In this document: positions 12,669-14,974 of the stretch, piece after piece
Position numbering within the stretch: the first letter of the stretch is position 1
Layout: every line of letters begins with the position of its first letter
Assembly: GCA_015063335.1 (NCBI GenBank)
Contig: SVUH01000029.1
Span: forward strand, 1-17,070
Direction of reading: 5' to 3'
From: Oscillospiraceae bacterium
GTDB lineage: Bacteria > Bacillota_A > Clostridia > Oscillospirales > CAG-272
Length of the DNA: 17,070 nt
Program-made: the position numbers and the translations under genes
The notes under the pieces: generated by a model
What the model saw: only the letters and a program-made list of their open reading frames with translations
Databases searched by the model: none
What the model was told of the DNA's origin: nothing

Positions 12669-12697
12669 ATTATATCATATTATGTCGATAGAGTCAA
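12669..12697 (-). promoter_or_regulatory. Sigma-A promoter of the pyr operon
   Basis: TTGACT (12697-12692), 17 nt, TATAAT (12674-12669), with a TGn extended -10. The -35 overlaps the stop codon of the upstream peptidase gene. Transcription should start near 12662. No operator-like dyad or attenuator stem is visible between the start point and the pyrC ATG. Confidence 0.87.
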
Positions 12698-13182
12698 GTA
12701 CGTTTAGAAAATATCCTGCGAAAAATTCGGACTATCTTATTCTTTACTCGTCTTATGAAAAAGAAGAATTTGCGAATAGGCATTTTAGTCCAGAAGAAGA
12801 CGTAAGCAGAGTATATGCCGCTGTCCGTTCCGAACTCTTTATCTTTTCTGTAAAGGCGCGAAACGCAAGCTATTATCTGCTCTTTTTCAATTCCGTATTC
12901 AAGCTGAGTCTGGTTATCTCCGCACATCGTATACGTTCCGTCCTCACGTACGTCCATAACTCTGTGCAAGACGAACTGACCGTTTTTTCGGCGGTAAAAT
13001 GCAATATCATGCTTTTTTGCGGGAATATCAAAATTACGCACAAGCACGACGGAATCTCTCGTCTGTACTATAAGAGGAAGCATACTCGTGCCCTTTGGAT
13101 ACATGCGAAATTCTCCGCCGCTCGCAAGCACGTCCTCTATTGCCTCTATTGCATCGGAAAGATAAAATTCACCGTTATTCAA
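12694..13182 (-). CDS. S24/S26-family (SipW-like) serine peptidase without an N-terminal membrane anchor
   Basis: A 162-aa protein with the signal-peptidase/LexA core. Nucleophile box: PKGTSMLPLI with Ser33-Met34. Substrate-binding strand: TRDSVVL (41-47). Second box: DIAFYRR then FVLHRVMDV, with His73 where type I signal peptidases have lysine, as in SipW/ER-type enzymes. GDN box: CGDN (87-90). There is no transmembrane helix at the N-terminus. The C-terminal 26 residues are instead strongly basic and aromatic, with eleven Arg/Lys among them, and could form a membrane-binding amphipathic helix. The start is TTG at 13182 with an AGGGAG site. It overlaps the PqqD-like gene stop by 8 nt, and no ATG lies before the nucleophile region. 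It may cleave a leader peptide delivered by the neighbouring RRE protein; this is inferred. Confidence 0.83.
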   Translation of the reverse strand: MNNGEFYLSDAIEAIEDVLASGGEFRMYPKGTSMLPLIVQTRDSVVLVRNFDIPAKKHDIAFYRRKNGQFVLHRVMDVREDGTYTMCGDNQTQLEYGIEKEQIIACVSRLYRKDKEFGTDSGIYSAYVFFWTKMPIRKFFFFIRRVKNKIVRIFRRIFSKRT

Positions 13183-13441
13183 GGATATTTGCTCCCTCTA
13201 ACTCATTTATAAATTTTTCAACGTCAGCTTCGACCACCGCCGCATCAACTCCCTCGTATTCATTCAAAAGCGCCTCGACTATCTCCTCTTTCTCAGCGCC
13301 CCTCGCGAGCATATCCCAGATGAATTTAGCGCTTTCGTTAAGCTTTATTATTCCGTTAAATACCTTGCTTGCCTGACCGAGGGCAACGACTACGTACTGT
13401 CCTGCTATTTCTCGTGCAACAAATCCGTTCTTTATTTTCAT
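13175..13441 (-). CDS. PqqD-like peptide-recognition (RRE) protein
   Basis: An 88-aa protein of the PqqD fold. In peptide-modification pathways this stand-alone RiPP recognition element binds the leader of a precursor and brings it to modifying enzymes. The family pattern is clear: a short beta-rich start (GFVAREIAGQYVVVALG, 6-22), then LNESAKFIWDML (34-45) with the conserved NxxAxxIW core, then helices with EEIVEALLNEYEGVD (52-66) and VEADVEKFINELEGANIL (70-87). The ATG follows GAGGA. It sits 16 nt after the kinase-like gene and overlaps the peptidase gene. No radical SAM enzyme or precursor peptide is seen in this window. Confidence 0.85.
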   Translation of the reverse strand: MKIKNGFVAREIAGQYVVVALGQASKVFNGIIKLNESAKFIWDMLARGAEKEEIVEALLNEYEGVDAAVVEADVEKFINELEGANILE

Positions 13442-13457
13442 TTTTCTTTCCTCATTT

Positions 13458-14165
13458 TTATTTCATTCCATTGTAGGCGACCTCTGCCGCTTCCTCGGAT
13501 ATATTACAGCCGAGAACGTAGCAAGGCACCCCTTTAAGCGTCCTGTCAAGAAGCGGAAAAAGCGCATCGACCGTTTCCATATCGGACGGAGTAAGTATCT
13601 GGTGAAATACGCGCATTACCGCCTCATCGGCGCCAATTCGTCTTATTTCATTTTTCTGTGCGCGTTCAAGGAAGCAGATCGCTTTAAGCGGAGCTCTTGT
13701 GTTTGTATGCCAGCCCTCCTTGCCGCACCAAGGCGTGCCGTATGCGTAAAGGCGACCGTCCTCGTCAAACCTGAAAATAGGCTTGTCTCCGTTAACGACG
13801 TGAACCCCCTCGCCAAAATACTTTCTCCAAAGAGAAATGTGGGTGGACTTTCCCGTTCCGCTCTTTGCCGCAAAGGCAAAGCCCTCACCGCCGTATTCGA
13901 TCACCGCGCTGTGAAACAGGTATGCGTTATATTTAAGCGGCAGATGCCTTGATATCTCGCGATAGATGCATATGCTCTCGGCATAGCCCCGTGAAACATT
14001 AGTTTCCGCAATACTGATCTCATCATCAATAAGATCCTCGCTTATCGAAACATCAATATCGGCATGCTCCGTCGGCTCGCAAACGTAAGACGCGCAAAGC
14101 CTTTCTACGTGGTCGTATTTATTTTTAATGCAAATTTTCAATCCTGCAATACTAATATAGAGCAT
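13458..14165 (-). CDS. HPr-kinase/PEP-carboxykinase-like P-loop protein
   Basis: 235 aa with a beta-rich N-terminal part (1-80) and an HPr kinase-like C-terminal domain. Seen: LFHSAVIEYGG (83-93, the strand before the P-loop), Walker A AKSGTGKST (100-108, Lys106), VNGDKPIFR (124-132), where HPr kinases usually have an Asp pair, and GTPWCGKEG (143-151). It is much too short at the N-terminus and too divergent to be the carbon-catabolite HprK. Related small kinases sit in lasso-peptide clusters and phosphorylate the precursor; whether this one acts on a peptide is unknown. It is the first gene of the kinase/RRE/peptidase unit, with an AGGAGGG site and its own promoter. Databases may call such proteins aldolase or PEPCK-like. 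Confidence 0.8.
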   Translation of the reverse strand: MLYISIAGLKICIKNKYDHVERLCASYVCEPTEHADIDVSISEDLIDDEISIAETNVSRGYAESICIYREISRHLPLKYNAYLFHSAVIEYGGEGFAFAAKSGTGKSTHISLWRKYFGEGVHVVNGDKPIFRFDEDGRLYAYGTPWCGKEGWHTNTRAPLKAICFLERAQKNEIRRIGADEAVMRVFHQILTPSDMETVDALFPLLDRTLKGVPCYVLGCNISEEAAEVAYNGMK

Positions 14166-14282: not shown

Positions 14283-14942
14283 TCAGTTGAATTTTTCAAT
14301 ATTGTCGCGAACGTACATAAGCATCTTGGTCTGCAAGTAGTTAGCGTTGCTTACAAGATAGTCTCTTACGTACTTTACCTGGAACGGCACAATTGCCTTC
14401 ATCTTGCGAAGATTTCCCGCGATCTCAGTCTCTCCGTTCATTTCAAGAGAGGAGCAAACGAACTCAACGGTCGCCGCGGAAGCCACCTCAAAGCACTTCC
14501 AGCCCTTTTCCACGTCTCTGTCGGCAAGGTCTATCAGAAGCTTGTACGCAACCAAGGGCTTGAAGGCGTCCTCCATATCAAGGTCGGGATCCTCAAGTAT
14601 ACCGTCAGTCCAAAGCTTTCCCTCGGAGGGAGCAAACTCTGAAAAATATCTATCCATTCTTCTGTTAACGACCTGAAGCGTAAGCTTTTCCGCGCCTACG
14701 TTTTTCTTGGTCGAGGCATCGTAAAGGAAGTAGTTGGGCTTATCTCCCTTTCCGCCAAACCAAACGAGAAAAGCAAGCTCTGCCGCCAAAGCAAGACTGA
14801 CGAGTGCAACGACGATCATCATGATCTTTGTAACGGTGTATGTAAAATCAATTACTAAGCCGCATACGAGCAAAGCAACGAACAGCGCTGCAAAAACAGC
14901 CGCCACTATTGTCAAAATCAAGTTAAGCTTTTTCTGATTCAT
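14283..14942 (-). CDS. Two-TM membrane protein of unknown function
   Basis: I do not recognise this family. It is 219 aa from the ATG at 14942, which follows GAGGTG by 7 nt; an in-frame GTG five codons upstream lies within that ribosome site and is rejected. Two hydrophobic helices are at about 8-31 and 37-61, joined by a short loop, followed by WFGGKGDKPNYF. The remaining 150 residues look soluble, cytosolic and helical, with charged stretches (VNRRMDRYFSEF near 92-103, LEDPDLDMED near 116-125) and several cysteines. No catalytic motif is evident. It is transcribed alone from a consensus promoter and ends at a strong terminator, so it is probably well expressed. Confidence 0.8.
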   Translation of the reverse strand: MNQKKLNLILTIVAAVFAALFVALLVCGLVIDFTYTVTKIMMIVVALVSLALAAELAFLVWFGGKGDKPNYFLYDASTKKNVGAEKLTLQVVNRRMDRYFSEFAPSEGKLWTDGILEDPDLDMEDAFKPLVAYKLLIDLADRDVEKGWKCFEVASAATVEFVCSSLEMNGETEIAGNLRKMKAIVPFQVKYVRDYLVSNANYLQTKMLMYVRDNIEKFN

Positions 14943-14974
14943 AGAAAAACACCTCACGAAAATATCTTACATAA

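Follow-up and report, generated by a model that had tools for sequence, protein, structure and literature searches.

Three adjoining genes in a 17,070-nucleotide stretch of DNA from an Oscillospiraceae bacterium (the window) very probably form a RiPP maturation module of the linear polyphosphorylated peptide (LPP) type, acting in trans on short peptides encoded elsewhere in the genome. LPPs are RiPPs of Bacilli (Popov et al., Nat Commun, 20 May 2026; PMC13381572), and their discoverers, in the text of that paper, call their role unknown. As described there, biochemical work on Paenibacillus established the same set of three enzymes for LPP synthesis: LppB binds a YxxP leader, LppK adds up to four phosphates to Ser3 of the core, and LppS (S29/H68/D93) cuts after T-1 in a reaction that requires LppB. 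LppN and LppD complete the cluster, which contains one to three precursors with the motif YxxPxVLxHQxIxFETxxS, a Tyr-Ser spacing of 18 as counted from the motif, the Ser at that distance being the phosphorylated one (PMC13381572).

By analogy with the Bacilli system as that paper describes it, the RRE of the window would bind the YxxP leader of the dispersed peptides, the kinase would phosphorylate a conserved Ser 19 residues past the leader Tyr, and the SipW-like peptidase, aided by the RRE, would cut the leader off around a D-[IV]-[IM]-T-x-S segment, thereby releasing a mostly acidic core. Most of the peptides we examined are encoded directly behind the gene for a large exported protein. A first-pass annotation of the window had suggested a minimal module for recognizing, phosphorylating and cleaving a peptide or protein tail whose gene lies elsewhere; this suggestion is now well supported, with its chemistry and role argued from analogy.

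Three coupled enzyme genes in the window

Translation of the window's open reading frames confirmed all three genes on the minus strand (Table 1), and they are as tightly coupled as the first-pass annotation had said, with an intergenic gap of 16 nt between the kinase and PqqD genes and an overlap of 8 nt between the PqqD and peptidase genes.

Table 1. Features of the enzyme trio, in positions of the window
Feature	Position	Strand	Description
Kinase-like gene	13458-14165	minus	235 aa; predicted HprK/PEPCK fold, LppK-like
Kinase P-loop (Walker A), residues 100-108	13842..13868	minus	S102-T108 invariant
PqqD-like gene	13175-13441	minus	88 aa; stand-alone RRE of the PqqD family, LppB-like
Peptidase gene	12694-13182	minus	162 aa, TTG start; probably SipW/Sec11-type, LppS-like, basic C-terminal helix
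Peptidase catalytic Ser33 codon	13084..13086	minus	invariant alignment column; likely counterpart of LppS S29
Peptidase His73 codon	12964-12966	minus	invariant alignment column; likely counterpart of LppS H68
Peptidase Asp89 codon	12916-12918	minus	invariant alignment column; likely counterpart of LppS D93

The kinase has no match in our local copy of Pfam, HprK included, and its matches to the curated ScmC and HprK-related NCBIfam models are weak and far below cut-off; PF27840 is carried by the 120 kinase relatives listed. Foldseek placed its AlphaFold model (pLDDT 91.9) with PEP carboxykinase and HPr kinase/phosphorylase (E about 1e-6), at modest TM-scores (0.29-0.39 relative to the query for the listed HprK chains). 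Residues S102-T108 of the P-loop are invariant in 23 aligned relatives, as are His85 and Asp127, and His85 precedes the P-loop by the same distance as the active-site His does in HprK. The predicted fold and the conserved P-loop together point to an HprK-like kinase of the LppK kind, in agreement with the HPr-kinase-like P-loop protein proposed in the first-pass annotation.

The PqqD-like protein matches Pfam PF05402 (E 1.6e-18), and a search with its profile recovers the lasso and LPP RREs of solved structure, TbiB1, LppB (9x8z), TfuB1 and PbaB1 (9x90), a sequence match which argues for the leader-binding type originally assigned to it and against the prospect that it lacks an RRE fold. Residues of LppB were mapped with a chain numbering offset of 18, which reproduces the residues named in PMC13381572. 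In sequence alignments, L32, N33, Y60, E61, V63, V67, D70 and F74 of LppB are identical in the window protein (as L34, N35, Y62, E63, V65, V70, D73 and F77), the peptidase-contact residue K31 is kept as K33, and the contacts T30, V35, C39, I56, M78 and L83, also named in that paper, are different. By family the protein is a clear discrete RRE, and with nine named residues kept and six not, it is a putative leader binder of the LppB type.

Matches of the peptidase to S24 (Pfam) and to signal peptidase I/SipW (NCBIfam) are both weak, and the curated SipW model gives 16.8 bits against a cut-off of 190. The peptidase profile finds Sec11 weakly (E 0.009), and a fold search returned nothing at E <= 0.001, LexA and Sec11 lying above that limit. 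An alignment of 14 sequences shows no variation at Ser33, His73 or Asp89. These results are consistent with a distant SipW/Sec11 relative with the Ser-His-Asp set of LppS, and they uphold the S24/S26 assignment of the first reading.

Family searches place around the trio a two-component system, Trp-repressor-like, HD-domain, CAAX-protease-like and LGT-like proteins, and histidine and pyrimidine synthesis genes. Among the 21 window ORFs we found no match to an LppN-type NTP transferase (PF14907), to an MsbA-like exporter LppD or other ABC transporter, or to a lasso macrolactam synthetase C or B2 cysteine peptidase. Across 467 reading frames of the window, a profile of the peptides described below finds no precursor, its best match being at E 6.8, so that, by profile and family search, the window is as devoid of a visible precursor or transporter as had been noted. 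We also considered a 224-aa membrane protein encoded upstream of the kinase (14283-14957) as a fourth member. It has N-terminal hydrophobic stretches and reaches the cut-off of neither a Pfam nor an NCBIfam family. Its cluster counts 19 proteins across the 82 sequences that we compared, and we judged it a lineage neighbour.

Short peptides encoded away from the trio

In related genomes the probable LPP-type precursors are encoded by short, dispersed genes, most of which lie far from the trio. A regular-expression hunt for YxxP in the window and the related loci yielded 67 ORFs, the majority of which overlap a long gene read in a different frame, and the first peptide alignment kept the five non-overlapping ORFs with a D-[IV] continuation. 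Small ORFs no more than 8 kb from the kinase in five loci (L032, L047, L057, L064 and L065) have a motif in common. The dispersed peptides read MKKxYxxPxIE...F...D[IV][IM]TxS, followed by an acidic tail. The five-row profile was searched against 30 trio genomes, those of 30 of the 80 loci. It matched in 28 of them at the permissive limit of E <= 10, where single matches near 1 carry no weight. Loose matches per genome reached a maximum of 22 (genome G002), and there were eight in the genome of the locus nearest the window (G001). We infer the presence of such peptides in the window's own genome from its nearest fetched relative, L001, whose kinase is 86% identical.

Tyr and Pro are invariant in a 37-row alignment of the peptides, and Asp and Ser are conserved in at least 90% of rows. 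For the anatomy we used 59 peptides with their flanks, including five whose genomes show no kinase match. As the peptides were gathered by profile, their motif conservation (Tyr in 54/58, Pro in 55/58, Asp in 58/59, Ser in 54/59) and, to a degree, the spacing of exactly 19 residues from Tyr to Ser in 51/59 are partly built in. The same is not true of ribosome sites and flanks, and a Shine-Dalgarno-like motif precedes 56 of the 59 peptide starts, compared to 177 of 1180 control ATGs. Thr stands two positions before the Ser in 36 of 54 peptides; the part after the Ser is 8-37 residues long, with acidic residues outnumbering basic ones in 51 of 54. Three peptides had no Pfam family and four had no NCBIfam family. 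A recurring short peptide gene of this kind is one of two signs that the first-pass annotation had looked to for support. As to the other, a shared C-terminal Ser/Thr motif, the conserved Ser follows the leader Tyr at the stated distance and is not at the C-terminus.

Lipoproteins encoded upstream of the kinase (c41, c91 and c92) were considered as precursors and rejected; they look exported, with N-terminal hydrophobic stretches. By eye, the tail of c92 in genome G011 (NDPAVEDPF) resembles a peptide core of the same genome (NDPYVDDPF). Acyl-carrier-like, MGMYSPNY-ending and lipoprotein-like NDPAV.DPF-ending proteins are found upstream of the kinase in L020, L063 and L076. Separately, in a second order, cores from different genomes are much alike and clade-specific (N.G..G.P...S...F; L284, L285 and L288-L291).

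Peptide genes behind exoprotein genes

The peptide genes are arranged as if in operons with their upstream neighbours: 46 of 57 start no more than 35 bp behind a same-strand upstream gene. By a simple rule, 28 of 35 uncut upstream neighbours have a signal peptide or lipobox, compared to 229 of 1157 background genes. The second order, that of genome G013, has the same layout, in that all 15 peptides, which come from 15 regions taken around strong matches, start -4 to 33 bp after an upstream gene on their own strand.

Some upstream exoproteins have a C-terminal domain in common. Its very divergent alignment (A6) holds 23 of the 47 upstream proteins, chosen by eye. The domain profile finds 19 of the 47, 17 of these 19 having been used to build it; of the 24 proteins outside the alignment, two match, one of them at its C-terminus. 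BLAST groups 38 of the 47 in one cluster, and 84 of 176 matches between pairs of upstream proteins (three of the 47 left out) are C-terminal to both. The cluster is no proof of one common domain, since the profile matches mostly its own source rows. The domain marks part of the exoproteins, not all. In the proteins tested, neither Pfam nor NCBIfam gives it a name, and six pieces of it gave nothing above the Pfam cut-off.

In a few genomes, tails are common to exoproteins and peptides. Genome G149, which supplied no rows to the domain alignment, has 17 exoproteins with the domain. Six of these end in a fused tail (GDNDASWPWN / KDNDAAWPWN type) with no peptide gene close behind, four lack such a tail and have, -4 to 36 bp behind them, a peptide gene with the core SFGDNDxxDPWA, seven have neither, and none has both. 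Dispersed peptide copies in this genome have near-identical cores. Four exoprotein ends in G093 have DND..PW. tails and five in G023 have [DG]-[DG]-L-[FY] tails, in each case like one of the genome's own peptides.

We took 80 domain ends, dropped five in which the frame ran on (L217 and L232-L235), and found 16 of the remaining 75 open, leaving 59 closed ends. An adjacent peptide gene (<= 50 bp) stands behind none of the 22 ends with an extension of at least 96 nt and behind 11 of the 37 without one (p 0.004), rows that come from twelve genomes and are not independent. A single extension row, L223 of G023, is followed by a peptide gene at a distance of 237 bp. We then scored the ends against peptide cores, using 20 of the 22 extension rows (96-200 nt), of which 19 were scored, and scoring 22 of the 26 ends with neither extension nor adjacent peptide, the unscored ones being from genomes without a known peptide. 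Extensions scored a mean of 29.2 against cores of the same genome and 18.0 against those of other genomes (19 rows, 17 of them from G023, G093 and G149), with mixed individual p-values and two rows, L222 and L260, pointing the opposite way. The ends with neither extension nor adjacent peptide had no same-genome preference (11.0 vs 10.2; 22 rows).

Other resemblances between protein ends were seen along the way. In G002 a secreted protein (L125:4472-6073) ends ..YRSWESLFGE, and the peptide whose gene (L125:3990-4127) it follows at 344 bp ends ..YTSWGNLFGE. Other secreted proteins nearby in L113, L116, L117, L124, L126 and L127 end in a hydrophobic stretch and a basic-acidic tail (RRRKDD, KRKED), and several of these neighbouring proteins end YPSDHLPV-like, as in an endonuclease/exonuclease/phosphatase match.

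What might the peptides do? We tentatively propose, as a possibility that we hold well short of even confidence, that exoproteins with the common C-terminal domain either carry a fused, species-specific tail (such as GDNDASWPWN) or have behind them a gene for an LPP-type peptide with that tail as its core (SFGDNDxxDPWA), and that the trio turns this peptide into a phosphorylated, detachable tag that would bind to, or be joined to, the exoprotein or a cell-surface receptor. It is speculative that the exoprotein or its receptor receives the core in trans as a tail; if true, this would be a RiPP pathway that builds or addresses the cell surface rather than one that makes a natural product. If the products were instead secreted signals or bacteriocin-like peptides, the pairing with exoproteins would be only an operon convenience. 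We consider this rather unlikely, yet it fits several observations: the rule of 'tail or peptide' leaves 26 of the 59 closed ends unexplained, with neither a long extension nor an adjacent peptide; 28 of the 47 paired exoproteins are without the C-terminal domain by profile; and the authors of the LPP paper see gain-loss patterns typical of biological conflict (PMC13381572). The tight spacing behind exoproteins, the near-identical dispersed cores of G149 and the tails common to peptides and exoproteins argue against it.

Distribution across genomes and comparison with known systems

The kinase alignment, searched against genome contigs, found 422 relatives. The best 80 of these 422 were taken as loci, in which genes were called with a codon-hexamer caller, and were compared along with one viral contig and the window, 82 sequences in all; 81 have the kinase, these being the window and the 80 loci chosen for it. 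The viral contig (L081, IMG/VR) has a partial kinase match of 33 residues at the contig edge. PqqD and peptidase profiles match in 59 and 56 of the 82 sequences, respectively. Kinase, PqqD and peptidase genes are consecutive on one strand in 38 of the 81, and the kinase and PqqD genes are consecutive with the peptidase not next in 15 more, including L032 and L057, where the peptidase precedes the kinase. All three genes are present in another arrangement in six more (L016, L018, L026, L033, L050 and L066), and none of these arrangements is found in 22 within the stretch examined, some of them at a contig end. With 3169 kinase and 1577 peptidase relatives at E <= 0.001, the observation is not due to chance. 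The three genes are thus co-conserved, a point on which the first-pass annotation could have failed, in many loci, though not in every one. Its expectation of similar trios in Clostridia was borne out by many loci; the trio now has an explanation in some bacteria, as the LPP paper accounts for it in Bacilli, and from May 2026 on it is recognizable from that work (PMC13381572).

Outer neighbours of the trio vary widely between loci. Could the window trio then be a relic or fragment of a clustered LPP pathway that has lost its precursor, exporter and transferase, with no substrate left? The window has none of these three, some other loci do have an NTP_transf_5 nucleotidyltransferase gene and an ABC exporter adjoining the trio, and rearranged or incomplete sets occur. 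A relic is nevertheless very improbable: all three proteins are strongly conserved with active-site residues intact, the trio-only layout recurs in different genomic contexts, and the peptides co-occur with it. As side observations, a radical SAM protein (weak SPASM) is encoded directly before the PqqD and peptidase genes in one locus (L050:11046-12494), and eight genomes (G072, G119, G131, G147, G168, G206, G225 and G245) have two to four kinase matches each; multiple kinases may serve different peptide sets or lasso pathways.

The peptides go together with the kinase in genomes of two orders. In the order of G001 (245 genomes; full kinase match at E <= 1e-40, peptide match at E <= 0.05), a peptide is present in 55 of 58 kinase genomes and 11 of 187 others (p 1e-39, shared ancestry uncorrected), or 48 of 58 and 6 of 187 at a stricter peptide limit of E <= 0.001. 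The figures are little changed without G001, the row source, and G010 and G023, which had been seen earlier. In the order of G013 (196 genomes) the counts are 18 of 20 and 2 of 176 (p 3e-21, again with shared ancestry uncorrected), or 16 of 20 and 0 of 176 at E <= 0.001. Three kinase genomes in the first order and two in the second have no peptide match, and eleven and two genomes, respectively, have a peptide match and no full kinase match. The RRE profile matches 52 of the 58 kinase genomes of the first order, leaving six with no RRE match.

The C-terminal domain of the exoproteins follows the kinase too. It occurs in 33 of the 245 genomes (29 of 58 with the kinase and 4 of 187 others), 32 of the 33 also having a peptide, and in 14 of 42 compared to 3 of 186 (p 3e-9) when the 17 genomes that supplied its alignment are removed. 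PF14907, the LppN-type family, is found in 48 of 58 kinase genomes and 27 of 187 others of this order, and lies no more than 2.6 kb from the kinase in ten genomes picked from the match lists; in the nearest genome, G001, nothing of the LppN type matches at E <= 1e-10. An LppN-type transferase may act in a second step.

It is hardly credible that the module marks a housekeeping protein or HPr, with the peptides tracking the same lineages through shared ancestry: 55 of the 67 genomes with a kinase match have a single copy, as such a role might predict, and the co-occurrence figures ignore phylogeny, but the leader motif and Ser of the peptides resemble the biochemically tested LPP substrate as described in PMC13381572, the association repeats in a second order, and, of 128 peptide places among the matches listed (G001 excluded, and only genomes with some kinase match counted), 15 lie no more than 5 kb from a kinase gene, each of these 15 being upstream of it and co-oriented.

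RiPP pathways are normally found through the neighbourhood of precursor and enzymes. In the present case a single set of enzymes seems to act in trans on many precursors, which are tied to exported proteins, and because the precursors are dispersed, cluster-based genome mining would miss them. The orphan trio of many Clostridia thereby gains a testable substrate, and LPP-type peptides gain a first hint of a role. In the openly licensed PMC literature we found no paper on a Clostridial LPP variant, nor any account of dispersed precursors, of the exoprotein pairing, or of a tail that is both fused and a RiPP core; the word clostridia does not appear in the main text of PMC13381572.

Set beside the LPP pathway as reported for Bacilli (PMC13381572), the window has a predicted HprK-like kinase, a discrete RRE with most of the leader-holding residues and a SipW-like Ser-His-Asp peptidase, and the relatives' peptides likewise have a YxxP leader and then a conserved Ser. 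Unlike in that pathway, the window trio has no adjoining precursor, exporter or transferase; the precursors of its relatives are dispersed, with up to 22 loose matches in a genome where an LPP cluster has one to three, and are paired with exoproteins; and their leader motif differs, with a Tyr-Ser spacing of 19, not 18. Phosphorylated lasso peptides of the paeninodin type similarly combine a discrete RRE, an HprK-like kinase and a [Y/W]xxP leader, according to PMC13381572, whereas the window has no macrolactam synthetase or B2 cysteine peptidase and its peptidase is of the signal-peptidase type. With HPr kinase/phosphorylase the window kinase has in common a fold match and the P-loop, but it lacks a Pfam HprK match and sits with an RRE and a putative leader peptidase. 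Finally, exoproteins with a common C-terminal domain and a short conserved tail recall C-terminal sorting tags such as LPXTG and PEP-CTERM; unlike those tags, the exoprotein tail here also occurs as the core of a separate RiPP-like peptide.
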